Shown here piece by piece: positions 1,791-25,229 of a stretch of DNA of 41,114 nucleotides (the stretch's first letter is position 1; every line of letters starts with the position of its first letter). Below the pieces are notes generated by a model. It worked only from the letters and a program-made list of their open reading frames with translations, had not been told where the DNA came from and did not search any database. The position numbers and the translations under genes are program-made. Source of the stretch: Hyphobacterium sp. (lineage in GTDB: Bacteria; Pseudomonadota; Alphaproteobacteria; Caulobacterales; Maricaulaceae); assembly GCA_021604625.1 (NCBI GenBank), contig BQJI01000003.1, positions 1 through 41,114 of the forward strand, given 5' to 3'.

Positions 1791-3220
1791 TGGAATCGCT
1801 CCTTGATCGCACAAATGACCGGTTCGGTTTGGTTATACATATAGGGTGTAGCGAAACGGCAGGGCGCATGTGGCAGAGGCGCGCCGATAATATCGTAATG
1901 GTCGAACCGGATCCACTGCGCGCGGATGCAATAAGGACCTGGCTCGACGAGGGTGGTAAGGGAATGCTCGTCGAGGCCGCTGTCGCAGACCGTCGGGGTG
2001 AAGGCACTTTCAGGCGAACCAGTTTTGGTGACATGAACAGTTTGCGGGTGCCTACAGGCGCATTGACGCTATTTCCTGGACTGCAATCACTGGAAACAGT
2101 GCCGGTAAAGCTGATTTTGGCACGTGACTTGATAAATGGGCGAAATTTGGAATCAATCGAGGGTCGGACCTGCTTGGTGATTGATGCTCCGTCAGAAGTG
2201 CTGGTTGCGCTTGCCGACCTCGTTGATGCTGATGTGCTTGAAAAGATTGACGATATCATTTTGAATGTTGCTGAGATTCCACTTCATGAAGGTGGAGCAG
2301 ACCGTAAGTATCTCGAAAGATGGTTGGTTGAGTCTGGTCTTCGACTTGATTGGGAGACGAATTCGGTTGACCCGGACATCAGATATGCCCGTGTTGAACC
2401 CGACTGGAAAGCCCGGAACACGCGAAACGACCTTCGTGTTCTTGAGTTGACGGAGATCGTTTCGGATTTGCGGGACTCTAATGCAAAAATCTTGGGTGAG
2501 GCGCAGGCGAATTATGCGGCACTGGAGAAATCGCAACAAGACCGGGACGCTTTGAAGGAAGAAGTTGAGGCGTTGAAGGCGGCCAAGGGTGAAGCCTTGG
2601 AGGCGGCGCAGGCGAATTATACGGCACTGGAGAAATCGCAACAAGACCGGGACGCTTTGCGACAGGAAATTGAAGGTCTTCGCCAATCCTATGCTAGTTC
2701 TTCCGAGGAGGCGCAGGCGAATTATGCGGCACTGGAGAAATCGCAACAAGACCGGGACGCTTTGAAGGAAGAAGTTGAGGCGTTGACGGCGGCCAAGGGT
2801 GAAGCCTTGGACGCGGCGCAGGCGAATTATGCGGCACTGGAGAAATCGCAACAAGATCGGGACGCTTTGAAGGAAGAAGTTGAGGTGTTGAAGATTGCGC
2901 TGAACAAGGCTTCTGAGGAGGCGCAGGGCGCGCAAAGAATTCGCTCCGAACTCGAATTGATGCGCGATGACAATAGGCTATCTTTGCGGATTCAGCGCAT
3001 TGCACAGGCGGATCTGGCAGAATTGCAAGACCGTTACGGTTCTCTTGCTGACGAGAAACGAAAACTGGAAGATTTTCTCGATGAGCTTGCTGAAAAAGTT
3101 CAGGAATCTATGAGTGCCAAAGCGGAATTGCCGTTAGAAAAGAAAGCAAAGACAACGCGCTCGCGCGCCAGGACATCCAGCAAGCCCGCGAAGAAAAGCA
3201 GCCAGGCGCGGTCAGAATGA
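1790..3220 (+). CDS. FkbM-like SAM methyltransferase-type domain fused to a 35-aa-repeat coiled coil
   Basis: N-terminus FGLVIHIGCSETAGRMWQRRADNIVMVEPDP...VEAAVADRRGEGTF resembles FkbM motif I/II; C-terminal half has four 35-aa repeats (AQANYAALEKSQQDRDALKEEVEALKAAKGEALE). ATG overlaps upstream TGA (TGATG). Confidence 0.6.
   Translation: MESLLDRTNDRFGLVIHIGCSETAGRMWQRRADNIVMVEPDPLRADAIRTWLDEGGKGMLVEAAVADRRGEGTFRRTSFGDMNSLRVPTGALTLFPGLQSLETVPVKLILARDLINGRNLESIEGRTCLVIDAPSEVLVALADLVDADVLEKIDDIILNVAEIPLHEGGADRKYLERWLVESGLRLDWETNSVDPDIRYARVEPDWKARNTRNDLRVLELTEIVSDLRDSNAKILGEAQANYAALEKSQQDRDALKEEVEALKAAKGEALEAAQANYTALEKSQQDRDALRQEIEGLRQSYASSSEEAQANYAALEKSQQDRDALKEEVEALTAAKGEALDAAQANYAALEKSQQDRDALKEEVEVLKIALNKASEEAQGAQRIRSELELMRDDNRLSLRIQRIAQADLAELQDRYGSLADEKRKLEDFLDELAEKVQESMSAKAELPLEKKAKTTRSRARTSSKPAKKSSQARSE
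2501..2920 (+). repeat. Four near-identical 105-bp in-frame tandem repeats (35 aa = 5 heptads)
   Basis: gcgcaggcgaattatncggcactggagaaatcgcaacaaga recurs at 2501, 2606, 2711 and 2816 (spacing exactly 105 bp); a degenerate fifth start (gcgcagggcg) is at 2921. Confidence 0.93.
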
Positions 3221-4191
3221 GTTCACCTCCGCCAAAATCTGTGGCTCTGGCATTAAGCGGCAACAGCAATACGCCGTCTCTGGAGGGTGCCGAGCCCGGC
3301 AAACGGGTCGGTCTCAACTGGTTAAACAGTGAGGGCACTCGTCGTCTGAATCAAAATGCTCTAGCGCGTTTGTCCAAACTCCTGAATCAGCGTCCAGCGC
3401 GCAATTTGGAATCCGTACGGACGATTCATCACTTTGCCTGTACGGGCGGAACATTGGTTGCCAGAGGGTTGCAATCGCAGCCGAACACGCTGCTGCTCAG
3501 TGAGGTGGACCCGCTCAGCACGCTACAGTTCAAAACCCAACGTTCGCGGTTTGCGCCCACAGATCCGATATTGTTGGCACGCGGCGCACTCAATCCGATC
3601 GACGATACGACTGCAGTCGAAATGTTCGTGGCGTCGGTGACGGTTTTGAAGGATCGAATGCAGCAGATTGGACGGCATCTGATTTTGCGTGATCATGCAC
3701 ATTCGCAGTTCTGTACCGAATCCGATTGGACAGCACGGCCCAGCTTGGCCCACATGTTGACGGATAGAGTGCCGCTTTGTTCGGTTTTGACTGTGCGTCA
3801 TCCTGTAGATTCGTTTTTGGCACTAGACCGGAATAACTGGGGCCACTTTTCGCCATTCACGCTGGAAGAGTATTCGCGTCGCTATTTGGCGTTTCTATCG
3901 GCATATGAAAACGTTCCGATTGTCAGATACGAGCGCCTTGTGGCTGAACCGGACGAAACCATGCGTGAGGTATGCCAGCATCTCGAATTGAGTTACAATT
4001 CAGACTGGAAGGCGTTGATTTCAGCTGTGAACATGTCAGGAGACAGTGGGCGCCGCGGAGATAAAATCGCACCGCGCCCTCGCCGAGAATACACGGAAAT
4101 GTTGGTGCGCGAATCGCAGGAAAGCGCGTCTTATTCAGAATTATGCCAGTTACTGGAATATGATGATAAAATCAGATGGCCGGAAAGTTGA
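3217..4191 (+). CDS. Sulfotransferase family protein
   Basis: FACTGGTLVARGLQSQPN (PAPS-loop-like region), LTVRHPVDSFLA (3'-phosphate-binding-like R-x-P), YERLVAEPDETMREVCQHLEL; 4-bp ATGA overlap with upstream gene. Confidence 0.65.
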   Translation: MSSPPPKSVALALSGNSNTPSLEGAEPGKRVGLNWLNSEGTRRLNQNALARLSKLLNQRPARNLESVRTIHHFACTGGTLVARGLQSQPNTLLLSEVDPLSTLQFKTQRSRFAPTDPILLARGALNPIDDTTAVEMFVASVTVLKDRMQQIGRHLILRDHAHSQFCTESDWTARPSLAHMLTDRVPLCSVLTVRHPVDSFLALDRNNWGHFSPFTLEEYSRRYLAFLSAYENVPIVRYERLVAEPDETMREVCQHLELSYNSDWKALISAVNMSGDSGRRGDKIAPRPRREYTEMLVRESQESASYSELCQLLEYDDKIRWPES

Positions 4192-9555: not shown

Positions 9556-9728
9556 GGATCAACTCAAAGTCGGAGGCTGAAACTAACCCAAATAATGGAA
9601 CACGTTGCGGGAGGTAAACGACCTCCCTGACGGGCTGACAATTGTTGCTAGTGTTTAGAGGTTGACGATTCTTTGATTGATCATTAACCGGCTTTATAGA
9701 AATGGTGTTTTCGCATTAGGGGTTGATT

Positions 9729-10505
9729 ATGAAAGCGGTAATTTTGGCCGGTGGGTTTGGCACCCGGCTTATGGAGGACACTCAGATTCTCCCGAAGCCG
9801 ATGGTCGAAATCGGCGGTCGACCTATTCTCTGGCATATCATGAAGTCCTATTCGGCGCACGGCGTGGACGACTTTATCATATGCCTTGGTTACAAGTCAT
9901 ATGCGATTAAGGAGTATTTTTACAACTATTGGCTGCATTCGACTGATGTCACTTTCGATATGAGCACTGGACAGCGAATAATTCACCGAGACGATTCCGA
10001 GCCGTGGCGAGTAACTTTAGTGGATACGGGTTTGAATACGATGACGGGTGGGCGACTCGCGCGTGTCCAAGAACATGTAAAAGATGTGCCCTACTTCCAC
10101 ATGACTTATGGTGATGGGGTCGGAGACGTTGATATCACGAAACTTGCCGAATTTCACCAAGCCCACGGACGTCACGCAACGTTGACGGCCACTAAACCTC
10201 CGGGGCGATTCGGTGCTCTTGACATAGAGCACGACAATCGAATTTCGGCTTTCAAAGAAAAACCAGAGGGGGATAACGCCTATATAAATGGTGGTTTTTT
10301 CTGTTTAAACCAAGCTGTATTTGACTACATAAACGAGGGCGACTCGACAGTTTGGGAACGCGCTCCCCTTGAGAGGCTTGTTCACGACCATCAGCTGGCG
10401 GCTTTCCGGCACGACGGCTTTTGGAGGCCCATGGACACCCTTCGAGACAAGACGCACCTCAATGACCTCTACGAGGCGGGAGAAGCAAAATGGAAGATAT
10501 GGTAG
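9729..10505 (+). CDS. rfbF: Glucose-1-phosphate cytidylyltransferase
   Basis: MKAVILAGGFGTRLMEDTQILPKPMVEIGGRPILWHIMKSYSAHG...FIICLGYKSYAIKEYF; followed by rfbG. Confidence 0.93.
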   Translation: MKAVILAGGFGTRLMEDTQILPKPMVEIGGRPILWHIMKSYSAHGVDDFIICLGYKSYAIKEYFYNYWLHSTDVTFDMSTGQRIIHRDDSEPWRVTLVDTGLNTMTGGRLARVQEHVKDVPYFHMTYGDGVGDVDITKLAEFHQAHGRHATLTATKPPGRFGALDIEHDNRISAFKEKPEGDNAYINGGFFCLNQAVFDYINEGDSTVWERAPLERLVHDHQLAAFRHDGFWRPMDTLRDKTHLNDLYEAGEAKWKIW

Positions 10506-10517
10506 ACAAGGCTCGCC

Positions 10518-11603
10518 ATGATTAACCGGGAGTTCTGGAACGGAAAGCGCGTATTACTCACTGGGCATACTGGTTTCAAAGGTGGGTGGATGTGCCTTTG
10601 GCTTTCGGATATGGGAGCGCATGTAACAGGTCTGGCTTTGGATCCGGAAACAGATCCGAGCCTTTTTGGCTCAGCCAGAATACATGAATTGGTAGAAGAC
10701 TATCGAGGTGATATCGGAGACAAAAAGATCGTCGACGCTGCGTTCGATGAGGCGGCGCCTGAAATAGTTTTCCATATGGCAGCCCAACCGCTCGTGCGCC
10801 GTTCATATCGTGACCCGGTGGAGACTTATCGCACGAATGTTGTAGGTACGGCGCATGTGCTGGATGCGGCCCGTCGTTGTGATTCTGTTCGATCGATCGT
10901 CGTTGTCACGACTGATAAATGTTATCACAATAATGAGTGGGAGTGGGCCTACCGTGAAACCGACCGACTGGGTGGCAAAGACCCCTATTCGAACAGCAAG
11001 GCTTGCACCGAATTTGTCGCTGCTTCATTCCGCGAAAGTTTTTTTTGCTCGGACGCGGCGAGCGGCATCGGCACAGACGCGCGGCTCGCAACAGCTCGAG
11101 CTGGCAACGTCATCGGCGGCGGGGATTGGAGCGAAGATCGTTTGGTTCCGGACATTATTCGGTCTCTTATAGCATCCGAACCGATAGAGATTCGCAATCC
11201 ATCCGCAACCCGCCCCTGGCAACACGTTATTGAACCACTTTGCGGATATCTAATTTTAGCAGAACGACTTTGGAACGGCGAGTGTCAAAGCGCTTATAAT
11301 TTTGGTCCAGAGCCTGAAAACGAGCTCACCGTCGCGGAGTTGGTCGACCAGCTTTCTTCCGGATTCAGGAATGCGGGAGGGAGTGTGGTTTCAAAGGCCG
11401 ATCACCCAAAGGAAGCGCAATTTCTTCGTCTCGATTCCTCACGGGCTAAAGTGGAGCTACGATGGCACCCAGCATTCAGTCTCGACGATACGCTTACTTT
11501 CACGTCAAATTGGTTTAATGCGTGGATGAACAACGAAGACATGCGCGAACATTCAATCAGACAAATCCATGATTACGAAACGAAATTTCTACTTGGGAAT
11601 TAA
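10518..11603 (+). CDS. rfbG: CDP-glucose 4,6-dehydratase
   Basis: FWNGKRVLLTGHTGFKGGWMCLWLSDMGAHVTGLAL; YxxxK in DPYSNSKACTEF; RAGNVIGGGDWSEDRLVPDIIR. Confidence 0.93.
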   Translation: MINREFWNGKRVLLTGHTGFKGGWMCLWLSDMGAHVTGLALDPETDPSLFGSARIHELVEDYRGDIGDKKIVDAAFDEAAPEIVFHMAAQPLVRRSYRDPVETYRTNVVGTAHVLDAARRCDSVRSIVVVTTDKCYHNNEWEWAYRETDRLGGKDPYSNSKACTEFVAASFRESFFCSDAASGIGTDARLATARAGNVIGGGDWSEDRLVPDIIRSLIASEPIEIRNPSATRPWQHVIEPLCGYLILAERLWNGECQSAYNFGPEPENELTVAELVDQLSSGFRNAGGSVVSKADHPKEAQFLRLDSSRAKVELRWHPAFSLDDTLTFTSNWFNAWMNNEDMREHSIRQIHDYETKFLLGN

Positions 11604-11611
11604 TTTTCCCT

Positions 11612-12850
11612 ATGCGAATTGAGGAACCCCCGATGACCAAACCCACGCCAATGACCGATTTTATCCGTGTACCTTACGGACTAGCCGTCCATGATGAGGA
11701 GGAAATCAACGCCGTCGTTGACGTCTTACGCACCTCCACACAGATGGGAAATCGCACACGTCAATTCGAAAATGTCATCGCCAAGGAATTCTCACACACG
11801 CACGGGATAATGACGAATTCCGGATCCTCTGCACTGACCCTCGCTATGGAGGCATTTAGTCTGCCACCTGGATCCGAAGTCATTACGCCTGCGCTCACTT
11901 TTGCCACTACTGTGGCTTGTATTGTGCAGGCGGGTTGCATACCGGTTTTTGTCGATGTCGGCGAAAACGACTACGTCATGAATCCATCTCTCATTGAAGA
12001 AATGATCACGGATAAAACTCGCGCCATTGTTGCTCCGAATCTGATGGGAAACATTGTTGATTGGGGCACGGTATCCTCAATTGCAAAGAAACACGGTCTA
12101 AAAATTCTGGAGGATTCAGCCGACATTCTCGGAGTTCAGTATCAGGGTAAAAACCTTGGAAATTATGCCGATATCTCTATTACGAGCTTCTACGGTTCCC
12201 ACATCATCAACTGTGCCGGCAATGGAGGTATGGCGATGACGTCTAACGATGACTATGCGAACCGCATGCGTCTTTTGCGTTCTTGGGGCCGTAGCTCTTC
12301 ATTATTTGTCGAATCAGAATCTATTGAAAACCGTTTCAACATTGATGTCGATGGTATTCCATACGATGCAAAGTTTGTTTTTGAAGCTCTTGGATACAAT
12401 ATGGAAGGCGCTGAACTGGGTGCTGCATATGGCTTGGAGCAATACAAAAAGTTGCCAAATTTCCTAGCGCGCCGAAAGGAAGTTGTTGGGCGGCATATGA
12501 AGTTCTTCTCTAGATATGAGGAGTTCCTCGAACTTCCAGAGTACACTGCGGAATCAGATACGGTTTGGTTCGCATTTCCAATGAAGGTAAAAAAAGGAGC
12601 TCCCTTTTCGCGCCGCGATGTACAAGTTTTCCTCGAAAACCGTAATATTCAGACACGAGTCGTTTTCACTGGAAATATTACCCGTCAACCGGGGTTCAAA
12701 GACCTTCCCATGCGCAAACATCCGAATGGGTTTGGAAATGCCGATGGCGTAATGGGACGGGGGTTTTTATTGGGCAGCCATCATGGTATCACCGAGGCTA
12801 TGTTGGAGCATCTTTATTCCAGCTTCGCTGAGTTCATCGAGAGCCAGTGA
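11612..12850 (+). CDS. RfbH/ColD-like PLP-fold 3-dehydratase (DegT/DnrJ/EryC1 fold, His in place of catalytic Lys)
   Basis: MTNSGSSALTLAMEAF, KILEDSADILG, SFYGSHIINCAGNGGMAMT (His at the usual Lys position), SWGRSSSLFVESESIENRF. Located directly after rfbFG. Confidence 0.8.
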   Translation: MRIEEPPMTKPTPMTDFIRVPYGLAVHDEEEINAVVDVLRTSTQMGNRTRQFENVIAKEFSHTHGIMTNSGSSALTLAMEAFSLPPGSEVITPALTFATTVACIVQAGCIPVFVDVGENDYVMNPSLIEEMITDKTRAIVAPNLMGNIVDWGTVSSIAKKHGLKILEDSADILGVQYQGKNLGNYADISITSFYGSHIINCAGNGGMAMTSNDDYANRMRLLRSWGRSSSLFVESESIENRFNIDVDGIPYDAKFVFEALGYNMEGAELGAAYGLEQYKKLPNFLARRKEVVGRHMKFFSRYEEFLELPEYTAESDTVWFAFPMKVKKGAPFSRRDVQVFLENRNIQTRVVFTGNITRQPGFKDLPMRKHPNGFGNADGVMGRGFLLGSHHGITEAMLEHLYSSFAEFIESQ

Positions 12851-12852
12851 CA

Positions 12853-13200
12853 ATGTCTATTCCACCGGTTGCCACTCTGTTGATGTCGGTTTTGATCGGC
12901 GCGTTGGGACAGATATTTTTTAAGTGGGGAGTGAGGCCGGAGATTTCCGGTGAAGTATCCAGCATGCAGGTATATTTCCGTCCAGCCACCCTGCTCGGTT
13001 TCTCATGTTACGGGCTATCCGCCTTGCTATACATTTGGAGTTTACGCCATATCCCCTTATCTATTGCGTATCCGTCCCTGGCGCTCAGCTACGTCATTGT
13101 TGTTGCTGCGAGCGCACTTTTATTTTCCGAAGCCATGACTTTACAAAAGGCGCTGGCGATTGCCCTGATTGTCACGGGCGTTGCTGTACTCTGGAAATGA
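12853..13200 (+). CDS. Small EamA/SMR-type four-TM protein (ArnE/ArnF-like lipid-linked sugar flippase candidate)
   Basis: ALGQIFFKWGVRPEIS...LYIWSLRHIPLSIAYPSLALSYVIVVAASALLFSEAMTLQKALAIALIVTGVAVLWK; about 116 aa, SMR/EmrE-like pattern. A GTG at 12847 is an alternative start. Confidence 0.75.
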   Translation: MSIPPVATLLMSVLIGALGQIFFKWGVRPEISGEVSSMQVYFRPATLLGFSCYGLSALLYIWSLRHIPLSIAYPSLALSYVIVVAASALLFSEAMTLQKALAIALIVTGVAVLWK

Positions 13201-14087
13201 CCTTACAGCGTCACATTCTTCTAAGTGGTGGAACTGGTTACATCGGCGGACGAGTGGCTCGCGCACTTCTAGAGCATGGAGATCATATTTATTTCATCAT
13301 CCGTCCTGGAAGCAATTTAAAACAGTACTATCAAAATAATTCCAACATCACCTGCATAAGCACAGATTCCTCGGATGAAGAGGCATTGAAGTTAATGTCG
13401 CTTCATCCACCTGACGCATTTGTGCATCTTGCGACTTACTACCGTCGCAATCTAACAAATCTTAACTATAGAGATCTCTTGGATTCAAATATTAATATGC
13501 CGACGCGTTGGCTTGTATTATCGCTTGAGGTTGGGTGCCAAACAATTGTCAATACCGCCTCTTACTGGCAAGAGTCAGACCAACCACCGCATGCAGCGAC
13601 AAACCTTTACGCCAGTACAAAGGCCAGTTTCGAAGCTGTTATTGCGGGATTTGTACAAAGTCACGCGCTTCGTGCGGTCACACTGCGCCTTTTCGACGTC
13701 TATGGCCCCGACGATCCACGACCCAAAATATTTACGCTCATCCGCAATGCGATGATTAACAAGCAATCCTTAGACCTTTCTCCTGGCGAGCAACTGCATC
13801 ATTTCACCCACATCAAAGATGTTGTGAATGGATATATGCATTTGTTGAGTAACTTAGAAAAATACCCGCCAATTCAACACCATAAGTTTGACCTGGCGGG
13901 GCCGCGCGCTTCTCTCCGGGAGGCGGTCGCGGTTTACGTTGATTTGTTCGGCGGGACGCCGACCCTCAATTGGGGAGCATTGCCATATAATGCTGGCCAG
14001 ATTCATACGCCTTGTCTAACAAGCCCGCTGCCTGGGTGGTTTTATAGTTATGACTTGAGGCAAGGCCTCCAAACTTTGGTGGAATAA
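13197..14087 (+). CDS. NAD(P)-dependent SDR reductase/epimerase, CDP-abequose/paratose synthase-like
   Basis: HILLSGGTGYIGGRVARALLEHG; NLYASTKASFEAV; LRLFDVYGPDDPRPKIFTLIRNAM...LDLSPGEQLHHFTHIKDVV. ATG at 13197 overlaps upstream TGA and is in frame with track ORF 13005. Confidence 0.8.
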   Translation: MTLQRHILLSGGTGYIGGRVARALLEHGDHIYFIIRPGSNLKQYYQNNSNITCISTDSSDEEALKLMSLHPPDAFVHLATYYRRNLTNLNYRDLLDSNINMPTRWLVLSLEVGCQTIVNTASYWQESDQPPHAATNLYASTKASFEAVIAGFVQSHALRAVTLRLFDVYGPDDPRPKIFTLIRNAMINKQSLDLSPGEQLHHFTHIKDVVNGYMHLLSNLEKYPPIQHHKFDLAGPRASLREAVAVYVDLFGGTPTLNWGALPYNAGQIHTPCLTSPLPGWFYSYDLRQGLQTLVE

Positions 14088-14091
14088 TTGA

Positions 14092-15072
14092 ATGAAACAG
14101 AAAATCAGCATCATTACACCTGTCTATAATGAGTCAGACAATATTGACTTATACTACAGCAGGATAAGTAAATCTATAGATGCTTTTTCTGACCGATATG
14201 ATTTCGAAATCATTCTTACGGATAACTGCAGTAAGGATGACACCTTCGAGAAGGCGTCAAAAATAGCGGACCGTGACCCGCGGGTTCATGTGATCCGGTT
14301 TTCCAGAAATTACGGTTACCAGCTATCCATTTTGACGGGGTACAAGCACGCTACTGGGGATGCGGCAATTGAATTCGACTGTGATCTGCAAGACCCACCG
14401 GAACTTCTAGTGAGGTTTATTGAAGCCTGGGAAGCTGGTGCACAGATTGTTTACGGTGTGAGAAGAACCCGCAAAGAAGGTATGGCGATTCAGTTCTTAC
14501 GCAAATCTTACTATCGGATCTTGCGTGCCATTGCGGACCACGACCTGCCTGTCGATTCCGGCGACTTTATGCTCTTGGATAGAAAAGTTTTGGACGTCTT
14601 GAAGACCATTGAAGATCCGGACGTCTACATTCGAGGCGTTGTGTTCAGCTTAGGCTTTAATCGTACGCCAGTATCATACGACCGCGCACCACGTGAACAC
14701 GGTGTGAGTAAATTCAATCTCGCGAAATTGTTGCGACTCGCCTTCGACGGCTTTTTCTCACAATCATCTCTTCCTCTGAAGCTATCAGGCTACGCCGCGC
14801 TTTTTCTCTGGTTTCTTACTGTTTTGACTTTGCCTGTTTATGCTGTTTTGAAAGTTGTCACTGGCACAGACTGGCCTCCCGGCTTCGCGACGCTTATCAG
14901 TTTTTTGCTGTTTCAGACCGGTATGAATGCGTTTTTCTTTTACATTCTTGGATCTTACTTGTTAAGGCTCTACCGGCAAACTCAGTTCCATGGACGGGTG
15001 ATCGTCAATGAGTACGTCGGGAGCGCGACGGTCGATCTAACTGATGGATCGAATAAAAGAACTTTTGACTGA
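14092..15072 (+). CDS. GT2 polyprenyl-phosphate glycosyltransferase (GtrB/ArnC/DPM-like) with two C-terminal TM segments
   Basis: ISIITPVYNESDNIDLYYSRI; GYQLSILTGYKHATGDAAIEFDCDLQDPPELL; REHGVSKFNLAKLLRLAFDGFFSQSSLPL; two hydrophobic C-terminal helices. Confidence 0.88.
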   Translation: MKQKISIITPVYNESDNIDLYYSRISKSIDAFSDRYDFEIILTDNCSKDDTFEKASKIADRDPRVHVIRFSRNYGYQLSILTGYKHATGDAAIEFDCDLQDPPELLVRFIEAWEAGAQIVYGVRRTRKEGMAIQFLRKSYYRILRAIADHDLPVDSGDFMLLDRKVLDVLKTIEDPDVYIRGVVFSLGFNRTPVSYDRAPREHGVSKFNLAKLLRLAFDGFFSQSSLPLKLSGYAALFLWFLTVLTLPVYAVLKVVTGTDWPPGFATLISFLLFQTGMNAFFFYILGSYLLRLYRQTQFHGRVIVNEYVGSATVDLTDGSNKRTFD

Positions 15073-15112
15073 TCAATCAAAGTTCAAGACTATCCTTTCC
15101 GCCAACATTTGC

Positions 15113-15235
15113 TTACCGCGCGGACTGGTGACCTGCGCCCCTTGGCTCCCCGGTCGATTTCCCGGCCTCACGCTCGCGGTATAGCGCGATAGCCTGTTCT
15201 TCCTTACAACTGCGCTTGCGCTTCGCCAATCCCAT
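15113..15235 (-). pseudogene. Short IS3-type transposase OrfA N-terminal remnant
   Basis: Minus strand MGLAKRKRSCKEEQAIALYREREAGKSTGEPRGAGHQSAR*, resembling the IS3 OrfA start KRKRFTEEQIIxxLREAEAG. Confidence 0.5.
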
Positions 15236-15323
15236 TTTCGTTGGACTCTGCCAATGCGTGGTTGGCAACCAGAGAGATGGGTCGAAAGGGATAAAGTATG
15301 GAATGCTTGATATATTTTAGTTT

Positions 15324-16907
15324 ATGGTTCGGCATTCATATTGTGAAGGATTCTGGGATATGATCGATGCGGTACTGAACGGTCGAATGTTGCACCACCT
15401 GTCTATTTTGTGGTGTCGAATTGGAGAGCCACATCGGCGCGCCATGGCGGCTGCTTTCGTCGTGGGAATTTTCGCATACTTTATATTTATTGCTCATCAC
15501 CTACTCGACAATCATGCCTTTAGAATGCCATGGCTCGGCGTGGACGAGCAGGTTCAACACGGTCGATGGCTAGGCCCCTGGGTTGGAAGGTTAACCTACG
15601 GCGCAAATATACCGGTTGTGATGCAGTTGTTTTCAATTGGTTTGGCGCTTACGGCCACACACCTTATCGTTAGCACTTGGAAATTATTTGAACGTTTCGG
15701 TGATTTGTTTTTAGTTTACACATTCATACTAATTATTCCTTATAATTTGGCGAATTTCTATTATTCATTTATGACACCATTGTTCTATGTATCATGGATA
15801 TTTGCGGCTGTTGCTTTTGCTCTTGTAGATCGTTTAAGTGCTTGGCGTATCGGATTATCGGCGATTGCAGTTGTTATGATGATGGCGTCATATCAACCTG
15901 CCCTGAGCATATTGGCGGTCATAACCCTCAGTGGCGTTATTGTGGGCATCCTCAAAAGCGAGAGGAATGGCGAGCGCGTCAACGATATAAATACGCTGTT
16001 TGCTGAAGGAAAATTGCTGTTCGCCAGAGGGATAGCAATGGTGCTAGGCGGTGGCCTGTATTTGGCGAGCACTCGGTATTTGCCAGACTCTTCAAAAGTA
16101 GTACATTTTGAATCGATAAGCGCGGTATATGAACGGCTAGTCTATGTAACTAACGCAGCGGTCCGGCACCTTTTTGTTACCCAGCCAGACATCCTGATCG
16201 CAACGAAAGTCGCATTGAGTTTGATTCTATTGGGAGCTGTGGTTGCCTCACTTTTCGGAGTACGCCGATCTCCTGTTAAAATTGCTGTTTTGGTGGTCGT
16301 TTGGCCGTTGATTGTAATCGGTTCCAAGGCACTATTTTTATTATCGGAACCTGGGAATATATATCAATATCGTTATAATGGAGGAATGATTTTCCTTTAT
16401 GGATTTTCAGCCGCGATTCTTTTGTATGTGTTTCCAAGAAAATTTATGAACTGGATCGTGACTTCTCTCATTCTATTTTCTACGATTCTTTTCTTCCAAG
16501 CAGACTTGGTGCGCCAGCTTGTCTTGCTGCGAGGCCAAGAACGCGATCTTTCGACAATCAACAGAATACTTTACAGGGTCGAGTCTTTGCCAGATTTCGA
16601 TAGCAATACTGTCTATGATTTTATACGGGTAGGTAATCTTCCTCGCTATCGGCTTCAATTGCTGGGGTCAAATGGACGGCGCTGGGATGAGATTGGCGAC
16701 GGCCATATGGACTACGGTGAGATTACCGACCTCTGGACTGACCATACCGTTCTGGGACTACTTGGATCAAATATCCGTGTGCTTCCTCGAAATGGCCAAT
16801 CCGCGACCGAGATAAGAGAAGAAGGATTGCTTGATGACCGACAGGTATGGCCGCATGCATCGTCTGTTTTCATTGATGAAGATCGTATTATTGTTTTCAT
16901 TCGATGA
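15324..16907 (+). CDS. Multi-TM GT-C-like membrane glycosyltransferase (GtrC/GtrII-type candidate)
   Basis: Long hydrophobic protein with many TM segments (FVVGIFAYFIFIAHHLLDNH..., NLANFYYSFMTPLFYVSWIFAAVAFALVD...), polar C-terminal domain; next to GtrB-like GT2. ATG at 15360 is an alternative start. Confidence 0.55.
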   Translation: MVRHSYCEGFWDMIDAVLNGRMLHHLSILWCRIGEPHRRAMAAAFVVGIFAYFIFIAHHLLDNHAFRMPWLGVDEQVQHGRWLGPWVGRLTYGANIPVVMQLFSIGLALTATHLIVSTWKLFERFGDLFLVYTFILIIPYNLANFYYSFMTPLFYVSWIFAAVAFALVDRLSAWRIGLSAIAVVMMMASYQPALSILAVITLSGVIVGILKSERNGERVNDINTLFAEGKLLFARGIAMVLGGGLYLASTRYLPDSSKVVHFESISAVYERLVYVTNAAVRHLFVTQPDILIATKVALSLILLGAVVASLFGVRRSPVKIAVLVVVWPLIVIGSKALFLLSEPGNIYQYRYNGGMIFLYGFSAAILLYVFPRKFMNWIVTSLILFSTILFFQADLVRQLVLLRGQERDLSTINRILYRVESLPDFDSNTVYDFIRVGNLPRYRLQLLGSNGRRWDEIGDGHMDYGEITDLWTDHTVLGLLGSNIRVLPRNGQSATEIREEGLLDDRQVWPHASSVFIDEDRIIVFIR

Positions 16908-23646: not shown

Positions 23647-24255
23647 GTGATTTTACGTGCATCCGGTGCCATTTTTTACCCAGCGAGCGTATTGTTGCTA
23701 GGGATTATGATTTTTTTGCCGCTATTGTTAAACGGGCGACAGCAGACCCAAAGAATCCAGAACATTATAGATTTTGGTATTATTGCAGATTTTGATCGGC
23801 TGCAGTCGCTTGTAACGGGTCCAGGAATTTCAATGGCAGTAGCAAGTGATGGTCGCGGTGGTCAGACCGTAGCGGTCACTGCAGGAAATTATCTGGGGGA
23901 CCCGAATATCACGCCCTCAGCTGGGGGGTTTATCCCGCTCTCTCCGCGAGAATTGGGAGTCGTTCAGGGGCATAGTCTTCGTGTTTCATTTTTTGTGGAA
24001 GCTGCGCCGGGAAGCGACGTAGACCTTGTTAACGTCGGTGTATTTCAACGGGGCATAGGGCAGAATGGTTGGGAGTTGCATGAATTTCCACCACAAAATG
24101 AGCCTATTATCGTTACTGTGACGCCGCCCCAATGTGAGGCCGAATATGGTTTCTTCGGTGTTTGGCCTTCCGCGATCGGCGAACCGGGTGTGCTGCATCT
24201 GAATAGGATACATGTCGAAATTCTGGAACCGCTTGATTGTGGGGAACGGTCTTGA
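23647..24255 (+). CDS. Hypothetical membrane-anchored protein, single N-terminal TM
   Basis: ASGAIFYPASVLLLGIMIFLPLLLNG TM, then a beta-rich-looking domain. ORF sits between glmM and the epimerase, overlapping the latter's possible starts. Confidence 0.6.
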   Translation: MILRASGAIFYPASVLLLGIMIFLPLLLNGRQQTQRIQNIIDFGIIADFDRLQSLVTGPGISMAVASDGRGGQTVAVTAGNYLGDPNITPSAGGFIPLSPRELGVVQGHSLRVSFFVEAAPGSDVDLVNVGVFQRGIGQNGWELHEFPPQNEPIIVTVTPPQCEAEYGFFGVWPSAIGEPGVLHLNRIHVEILEPLDCGERS

Positions 24256-25229
24256 AAAACCCATTGAAAATTGTGGTAACCGGTGCAGCAGGTTTCATCG
24301 GATATCATGCGGTGAAATCATTGCTCGCTACCGGGCATTCCGTACTGGCGATCGATAATCTGAACGATTATTATGATGCCAAAATTAAAACGGACCGTTT
24401 AGAAAACATTGGAGCCGATAAGAGTTTTTGCTTCGAGCAAGTCGACGTCGCTGATCACAGAAGAATAGTTGATATTTTTCAAAAATACGCCCCGTCGCGA
24501 GTTTTACATCTAGCTGCTCAGGCGGGTGTGAGGTATTCAATTGAAAACCCTTTTACATATATAGAGTCAAACATAAGAGGTCATTTATCAATTCTTGAGG
24601 CGGTACGTAATACACCTTCGATCAGGCATCTCATATATGCTTCGTCAAGTTCAGTTTATGGAAATAATACCGATGCGCCCTTCTCGGAAGGTGATCGAGT
24701 TGATAAACCAGTGTCACTTTATGCAGCAACAAAAAGAGCCGACGAACTTATGAGTGAGAGTTATTCGGAGCTCTATCAAATTCCCCAAACAGGACTTCGG
24801 TTCTTTACTGTTTATGGCCCTTGGGGGCGTCCGGACATGGCGTACTGGTCGTTTACCAAGGCAATTCTCGCATCCACGCCAATTAACGTTTACAACGGAG
24901 GAGAATTAGAGCGCGACTTTACATACATAGACGATGTGATTCAGGCCATTATTAGAATTGTTGAAGATGTGCCAAAAAACAAATCTAACCGAATTTACAA
25001 TATAGGGGGTTCGCATCCGAGAAATCTTCATGAATTTATTGACATAATATCTTCGGCGTGTGGAAAAACAGCTATATGTAAAAATTATCCGATGCAAAAG
25101 GGCGATGTTTATTGTACATATGCCGATTTAACAAAGATAAAAGAAGATTATCATTATAAACCCGAAATTACTTTGGAAATTGGCATTCCAAAATTTGTGA
25201 ATTGGTATAAACAATATCATGAGATATAG
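24252..25229 (+). CDS. NAD-dependent epimerase, UDP-glucuronate 4-epimerase-like
   Basis: KIVVTGAAGFIGYHAVKSLLATGHSVLAIDNLNDYYDAKIKTDRLENIG; HLAAQAGVRYSIENPFTYIESNI; SSSSVYGNN; SLYAATKRADELM. TTG at 24252 is the likely start; the track GTG is at 24237. Confidence 0.85.
   Translation: MKNPLKIVVTGAAGFIGYHAVKSLLATGHSVLAIDNLNDYYDAKIKTDRLENIGADKSFCFEQVDVADHRRIVDIFQKYAPSRVLHLAAQAGVRYSIENPFTYIESNIRGHLSILEAVRNTPSIRHLIYASSSSVYGNNTDAPFSEGDRVDKPVSLYAATKRADELMSESYSELYQIPQTGLRFFTVYGPWGRPDMAYWSFTKAILASTPINVYNGGELERDFTYIDDVIQAIIRIVEDVPKNKSNRIYNIGGSHPRNLHEFIDIISSACGKTAICKNYPMQKGDVYCTYADLTKIKEDYHYKPEITLEIGIPKFVNWYKQYHEI

Follow-up and report, generated by a model that had tools for sequence, protein, structure and literature searches.

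A conserved family of DegT-fold proteins predicted to act as Fe-S-free sugar 3-dehydratases in bacterial CDP-sugar pathways

The window analysed here, a stretch of 41,114 nucleotides from Hyphobacterium sp., carries a gene whose product resembles the Fe-S dehydrase E1 (AscC/RfbH) and has none of the residues that hold the E1 cluster. This raises the question of whether such a protein could remove the C3 hydroxyl of a CDP-sugar on its own, and by what chemistry. Aminotransferases of the DegT family carry a PLP-binding Lys at the position of E1 His220. E1, ColD and SpnQ are the well-characterised sugar 3-dehydratases, with the Fe-S enzyme E1 representing the CDP route (PMC8987622, a 2022 review of nucleotide sugar dehydratases). 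In both E1 and ColD, PMP forms a Schiff base at C4 and a His drives loss of the C3 hydroxyl; what follows dehydration is hydrolysis with glutamate recycling in ColD and reduction via [2Fe-2S] and the partner E3 in E1 (PMC8987622). A 2021 study that needed CDP-tyvelose failed to obtain E1/E3 in active recombinant form, and the suspected cause was the Fe-S clusters (PMC7851689). In the open-access papers that we found, no Fe-S-free CDP 3-dehydratase was described.

The gene lies in the following group, all on the forward strand:

9723..10505 (+), rfbF, glucose-1-phosphate cytidylyltransferase, which makes CDP-glucose (TIGR02623, 401.6 bits, cut-off 300)
10518..11603 (+), rfbG, CDP-glucose 4,6-dehydratase, which makes CDP-4-keto-6-deoxyglucose (TIGR02622, 479.8 bits, cut-off 278; 49% identity to Salmonella RfbG)
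11612..12850 (+), predicted Fe-S-free His-type DegT-fold sugar 3-dehydratase, family X (DegT Pfam; RfbH model below cut-off; E1 3bcx the best sequence and fold match; family alignment and tree); key sites His197, Ser196 and W225-GRSSSLFVESESIENRF-242 in place of the Cys loop
12853..13200 (+), small membrane protein of 115 aa, EamA/ArnE-ArnF-like, possible undecaprenyl-phosphate-sugar flippase (PF00892, 35 bits; ArnF, 55 bits, below the cut-off of 99)
13197..14087 (+), SDR reductase, likely the 4-ketoreductase completing a CDP-3,6-dideoxyhexose (Epimerase Pfam)
14092..15072 (+), GT2 glycosyltransferase of PgfS/ArnC type, polyprenyl-phosphate sugar transferase (PgfS, 181 bits; ArnC, 112 bits; both below cut-off)
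15324..16907 (+), GtrII-type membrane glycosyltransferase (PF14264, 53 bits, cut-off 30)

The ORF at 11612-12850 encodes a DegT-fold protein of 412 amino acids (Pfam match, 277 bits). In the PDB, its best sequence match was the Yersinia pseudotuberculosis E1 dehydrase (3bcx; 226 bits), followed by perosamine synthase (about 149 bits) and ColD (about 137 bits), and the protein scored 305.9 bits with the NCBIfam model of RfbH, under the equivalog cut-off of 423. A preliminary description of this DNA had placed a His where aminotransferases have the PLP Lys. The alignment confirmed this: using phmmer against 3bcx and 3bb8, the latter being the H220K mutant of E1, we found that His197 in the motif SFYGSH pairs with E1 His220. 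The same description had reported the Fe-S cysteines missing, and the E1 ligand positions C193/C251/C253/C261 indeed read A/S/L/I in the window protein; the first of these losses, C193 to A170, had not been named before. The protein contains three Cys in total, at 103, 109 and 201, so that none follows INCAG, again as described.

We next considered whether these features extend beyond one protein. The window protein and its relatives are called family X here. A scan of 84,980 species genomes confirmed 573 relatives. The best 80 of these were taken, and 88 family members were examined. Relatives at 52-55% identity were also detected by tblastn in plasmid records of Sinorhizobium, Ensifer, Roseibium, Palleronia and Leisingera, where annotations label family X relatives as aminotransferases. 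The catalytic position was His in 88/88 members. None of the 88 had the C251/C253/C261 set, and 11 kept C193 alone, while all four Cys were found in 16/16 control proteins (E1/RfbH/phage). E1-type proteins with all four Fe-S Cys are encoded by a cyanophage (L019), a marine virus (L122) and an uncultured 642-kb phage (L123). In place of the E1 Cys loop, family X has a loop of similar length, WGRSSSxFxxSExxENRF, in which W225, G226, R227, S229, S230, S235, E236, E239, N240, R241 and F242 are invariant among the 54 sequences of alignment A3. So many invariant positions indicate purifying selection on a different loop rather than decay. It is therefore very improbable that family X is simply a degenerate, inactive E1, as the loss of all Fe-S ligands might otherwise suggest: identity of 52-58% is maintained across several phyla, the replacing loop and the catalytic residues are strongly conserved, and X is usually the sole candidate 3-dehydratase in its genome. 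Family X is apparently a widespread, uncharacterised family of vitamin-B6 enzymes.

The preliminary description had also called the protein ColD-type and proposed a phylogeny with E1-type proteins and ColD as a check. A careful maximum-likelihood analysis of 55 proteins recovered four separate clades: X (100/100), Fe-S E1 (99/97), ColD (99/96) and the Lys aminotransferases (100/99). X grouped with E1 at 93/83, which is below the star threshold; a sister relationship of X and ColD was marginally rejected (p-AU 0.038), and one of E1 and ColD was not (p-AU 0.22). The window protein is 42-58% identical to other X proteins, 28-36% to E1-type and 26-30% to ColD-type proteins. An AlphaFold model (pLDDT 91.2), built from an alignment of the window and genome-scan loci with plasmid-record rows left out, matched the fold of E1 best (TM 0.88) and then those of aminotransferases and ColD; the loop region at 221-260 was less confident, with block means of 62-78. 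Judged from sequence, X is a third lineage that is probably nearer to E1. Membership of ColD thus did not hold, and "ColD-type" likely fits the chemistry of family X, where the Ser-His dyad and the lack of an Fe-S cluster speak for it, and not its ancestry.

The residues around the active site point in both directions. The equivalent of E1 D194 was kept in 29/29 X proteins of the compared set and that of Y217 in 27/29; the corresponding ColD residues are Glu and Phe. Like E1, family X carries WGR...RF...YDxK and GNxxRQP motifs, and the retention of D194, Y217 and GNxxRQP, with E1 as the best fold match, indicates that the dehydratase scaffold is intact. The residue preceding the catalytic His was Ser in 86/88 X and 5/5 ColD proteins, in contrast to Ala in 15/16 E1 proteins. 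A second His common to E1 and ColD is missing in X (HH becomes H-I/V), and beside the catalytic His there is one inserted residue and GNGG instead of the GEGG of E1 and ColD. By these comparisons, the frame of X is E1-like and its dyad ColD-like; other features are peculiar to X, and because of these its chemistry could differ from both enzymes. Two deep actinobacterial family X proteins (L015, L016) have no Tyr217 equivalent and their function may differ; no CDP-pathway genes were found near either.

Since X cannot hold the E1 cluster, hydrolysis is the likelier ending of its reaction, and the Ser-His dyad agrees with this; a glutamate/PMP-dependent hydrolytic mechanism is plausible. An alternative is that X is a reductive C3 dehydratase like E1 to which an external ferredoxin or flavin protein passes electrons directly, with no cluster in X itself. 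The tendency of X towards E1 and away from ColD in the tree, together with the E1 D194/Y217 pair and the WGR, RF and YDxK framework, would fit such an enzyme, and the example of SpnQ illustrates that the reductase partner does not have to be a dedicated one (PMC8987622). We nevertheless regard this alternative as unlikely. Every member has lost C251/C253/C261 and carries no other Cys set in the loop to replace them, the dyad is that of ColD, and none of the 88 loci has a linked gene for an E3-like reductase.

The last point carries little weight. That no E3 lies nearby had been offered as agreeing with a reductase-free mechanism. With the E3 proteins of the Salmonella and Sphingomonas E1 loci as queries, we found no homologue in the window, in the 87 related loci or in the window's own genome (88% complete), where the one FAD_binding_6 match was a 285-aa reading frame (L010). 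A scan of the X loci for Fer2/RxYS motifs gave two irrelevant matches and recognised both real E3 positive controls. However, five relatives with an intact Fe-S E1 had no recognisable E3 either, and an E3 was linked in only 2/14 of the E1 loci examined (Salmonella and Sphingomonas). The absence is real but does not discriminate, and we dropped it as evidence for the mechanism of X.

The substrate is suggested by the neighbours. RfbF and RfbG, both strong family matches, make CDP-4-keto-6-deoxyglucose, which the window protein would take up. Enzyme-bound PMP would condense with the C4 ketone to a Schiff base, after which His197 (E1 His220, ColD His188) would drive loss of the C3 hydroxyl, as in the known mechanism of the fold. 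The PMP-glucoseen adduct would probably be hydrolysed, as in ColD, into PLP and an enamine; the enamine would tautomerise and release ammonia to give a CDP-3,6-dideoxy-4-ketohexose, with PMP regenerated from glutamate. The SDR at 13197-14087 would probably reduce C4 next. From the family matches, the GT2 protein would transfer the sugar to undecaprenyl phosphate, the ArnE/F-like protein would flip it and the GtrII-like protein would add it outside the cytoplasm. The group has no RmlC-type epimerase, and our guess is that the product sugar is D-configured and paratose- or abequose-like. Taken as a whole, the sequence evidence makes it reasonably likely that the window protein is an Fe-S-free, PMP-dependent CDP-4-keto-6-deoxyglucose 3-dehydratase.

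The unusual surroundings of the active site (GNGG replacing GEGG, an inserted residue and the missing second His) leave room for a His-type PMP enzyme that performs another reaction on CDP-4-keto-6-deoxy sugars, such as transamination, C3/C5 epimerisation or tautomerisation, and SpnQ can transaminate without reductant (PMC8987622). But E1 and ColD with His do not transaminate, and the E1 H220K mutant gave only non-catalytic transamination (PMC8987622). RmlC-type epimerases and Lys-type aminotransferases are encoded separately in some X operons. Moreover, YerE-type enzymes act on CDP-3,6-dideoxy-4-keto-glucose (PMC12247030), and similar TPP enzymes, acetolactate-synthase-like and putatively YerE-like, adjoin X and were present in seven X loci. 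Another reaction is accordingly rather improbable, and the 3-dehydratase assignment is preferred.

To see how generally X is tied to CDP-sugars, we surveyed the 88 loci. In the stretches fetched, at least 47 loci carried rfbF or rfbG and 40 carried both, supporting the earlier proposal that this His-type, Fe-S-free C3 deoxygenation belongs to a CDP-sugar pathway. In about half of the loci, mostly from Bacteroidota, X lay apart from rfbF/rfbG. In 16/16 tested genomes where X was not adjacent, rfbG was found elsewhere (416-488 bits), mostly in an rfbF-rfbG-RmlC-type group, compared with 1/14 control genomes over the cut-off. X operons share partner genes with E1 operons: their RmlC-type epimerases are 40-46% identical to RfbC encoded in E1 operons of Sphingomonas and Qipengyuania, a split transketolase is 40% and 31% identical to that of the Desulfobaculum E1 operon, and their SDRs resemble E1-operon SDRs. 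Fe-S E1 was absent in 29/30 X genomes searched, the exception being G110 (from L084), which has both. X therefore looks like a replacement of E1 and not an assistant, and a role as E1 partner was ruled out. The best explanation is that in many bacteria family X takes the place of Fe-S E1 in pathways for CDP-3,6-dideoxyhexoses and branched sugars.

Compared with E1, then, X shares the fold, the catalytic His, the D194/Y217 equivalents and CDP-glucose operons, and differs in its separate clade, its missing [2Fe-2S] ligands and second His, its Ser for Ala, its GNGG and its score with the RfbH model (306 against 423 bits). ColD (GDP-4-keto-6-deoxymannose 3-dehydratase, 2gms) shares with X the fold, the Ser-His pair, the lack of a cluster and likely the same glutamate-driven chemistry, but it belongs to a GDP pathway, has no WGR and retains the second His; the ColD-like L118 and L119 adjoin gmd, where the window has rfbF/rfbG instead. 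For the SpnQ-type dTDP 3-dehydratases we used S. lavendulae RfbH (L017), chosen by gene context, as a stand-in. It is His-type like X, but it keeps four Cys, falls in the Fe-S clade and lies in a dTDP context with a 2,3-dehydratase. The DegT sugar aminotransferases (GDP-perosamine synthase, 3dr7/3bn1) have the same fold type and PLP/PMP site, whereas X has His for Lys throughout and an extra loop between WGR and YDxK.

Because a sister relationship of E1 and ColD was not rejected, the Fe-S cluster may have been either gained by E1 or lost by X. We tentatively raise the broader idea, for which the case falls somewhat short of even, that X is a cluster-free third 3-dehydratase lineage, sister to E1, which in several phyla carries out the CDP-sugar reaction of E1 through glutamate-driven hydrolysis and keeps the state that predates the [2Fe-2S] gain. 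If so, [2Fe-2S] would have been acquired late, on the E1 branch. Confirmation of the 3-dehydratase assignment would provide a one-protein, cluster-free alternative to E1/E3 that makes CDP-3,6-dideoxyhexoses accessible, and would correct the "aminotransferase" labels of family X genes in public records; gain or loss of the Fe-S cluster in E1 would become directly testable by mutation and phylogeny. Rare bacterial surface sugars would also be reachable by a simpler route.

The end product appears to vary, as some X operons contain a C-methyltransferase or the TPP enzyme. A Zn-binding sugar C-methyltransferase (Methyltransf_13/23/14) adjoins X in L012 (9219-10475), L013 (9398-10642), L014 (9203-10486) and L090 (about 12368), which may make a C-methylated dideoxyhexose the final product of some X pathways. 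Fusions of about 600 aa between a Lys-type DegT aminotransferase and a GNAT acetyltransferase occur in X CDP-sugar operons (L036, 11184-13004; L030, L037, L040 and L082). A conserved ORF of about 128 aa with no Pfam match directly follows X where it is apart from rfbF/rfbG, in L045 (11199-11582) and eight other Bacteroidota loci.

Among the comparators for the SDR of the window, SDRs from E1 operons scored highest (133 and 122 bits), with CDP-paratose synthase next at 70 bits. The ATG of the window SDR at 13197 overlaps the TGA of the 115-aa gene (ATGA), which is in another frame. As listed, the ORF begins at 13005 and so extends in frame across that gene; the SDR most likely starts at 13197. 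We had considered the Cys-rich N-terminus of the 13005-14087 ORF as a remnant of the C-methyltransferase encoded after X in Roseobacter operons, but this was ruled out as it is the wrong frame over the ArnE/F-like gene. The GT2 protein is 39-43% identical to the GT2 of X operons L011-L014 and L020, and is a conserved neighbour of X in other alphaproteobacteria. The rfbF-to-GtrII group (9723-16907) has a G+C content of 47.8%, compared with 53.5% for the whole window, and family X was found in none of 98 related genomes, five of which carry an E1-type relative. The low G+C and this absence suggest that the group was horizontally acquired. Further along, a gene at 2635-3603 of the alphaproteobacterial locus L070, which holds the nearest tree neighbour of the window protein, is homologous to 24237-25226 of the window.
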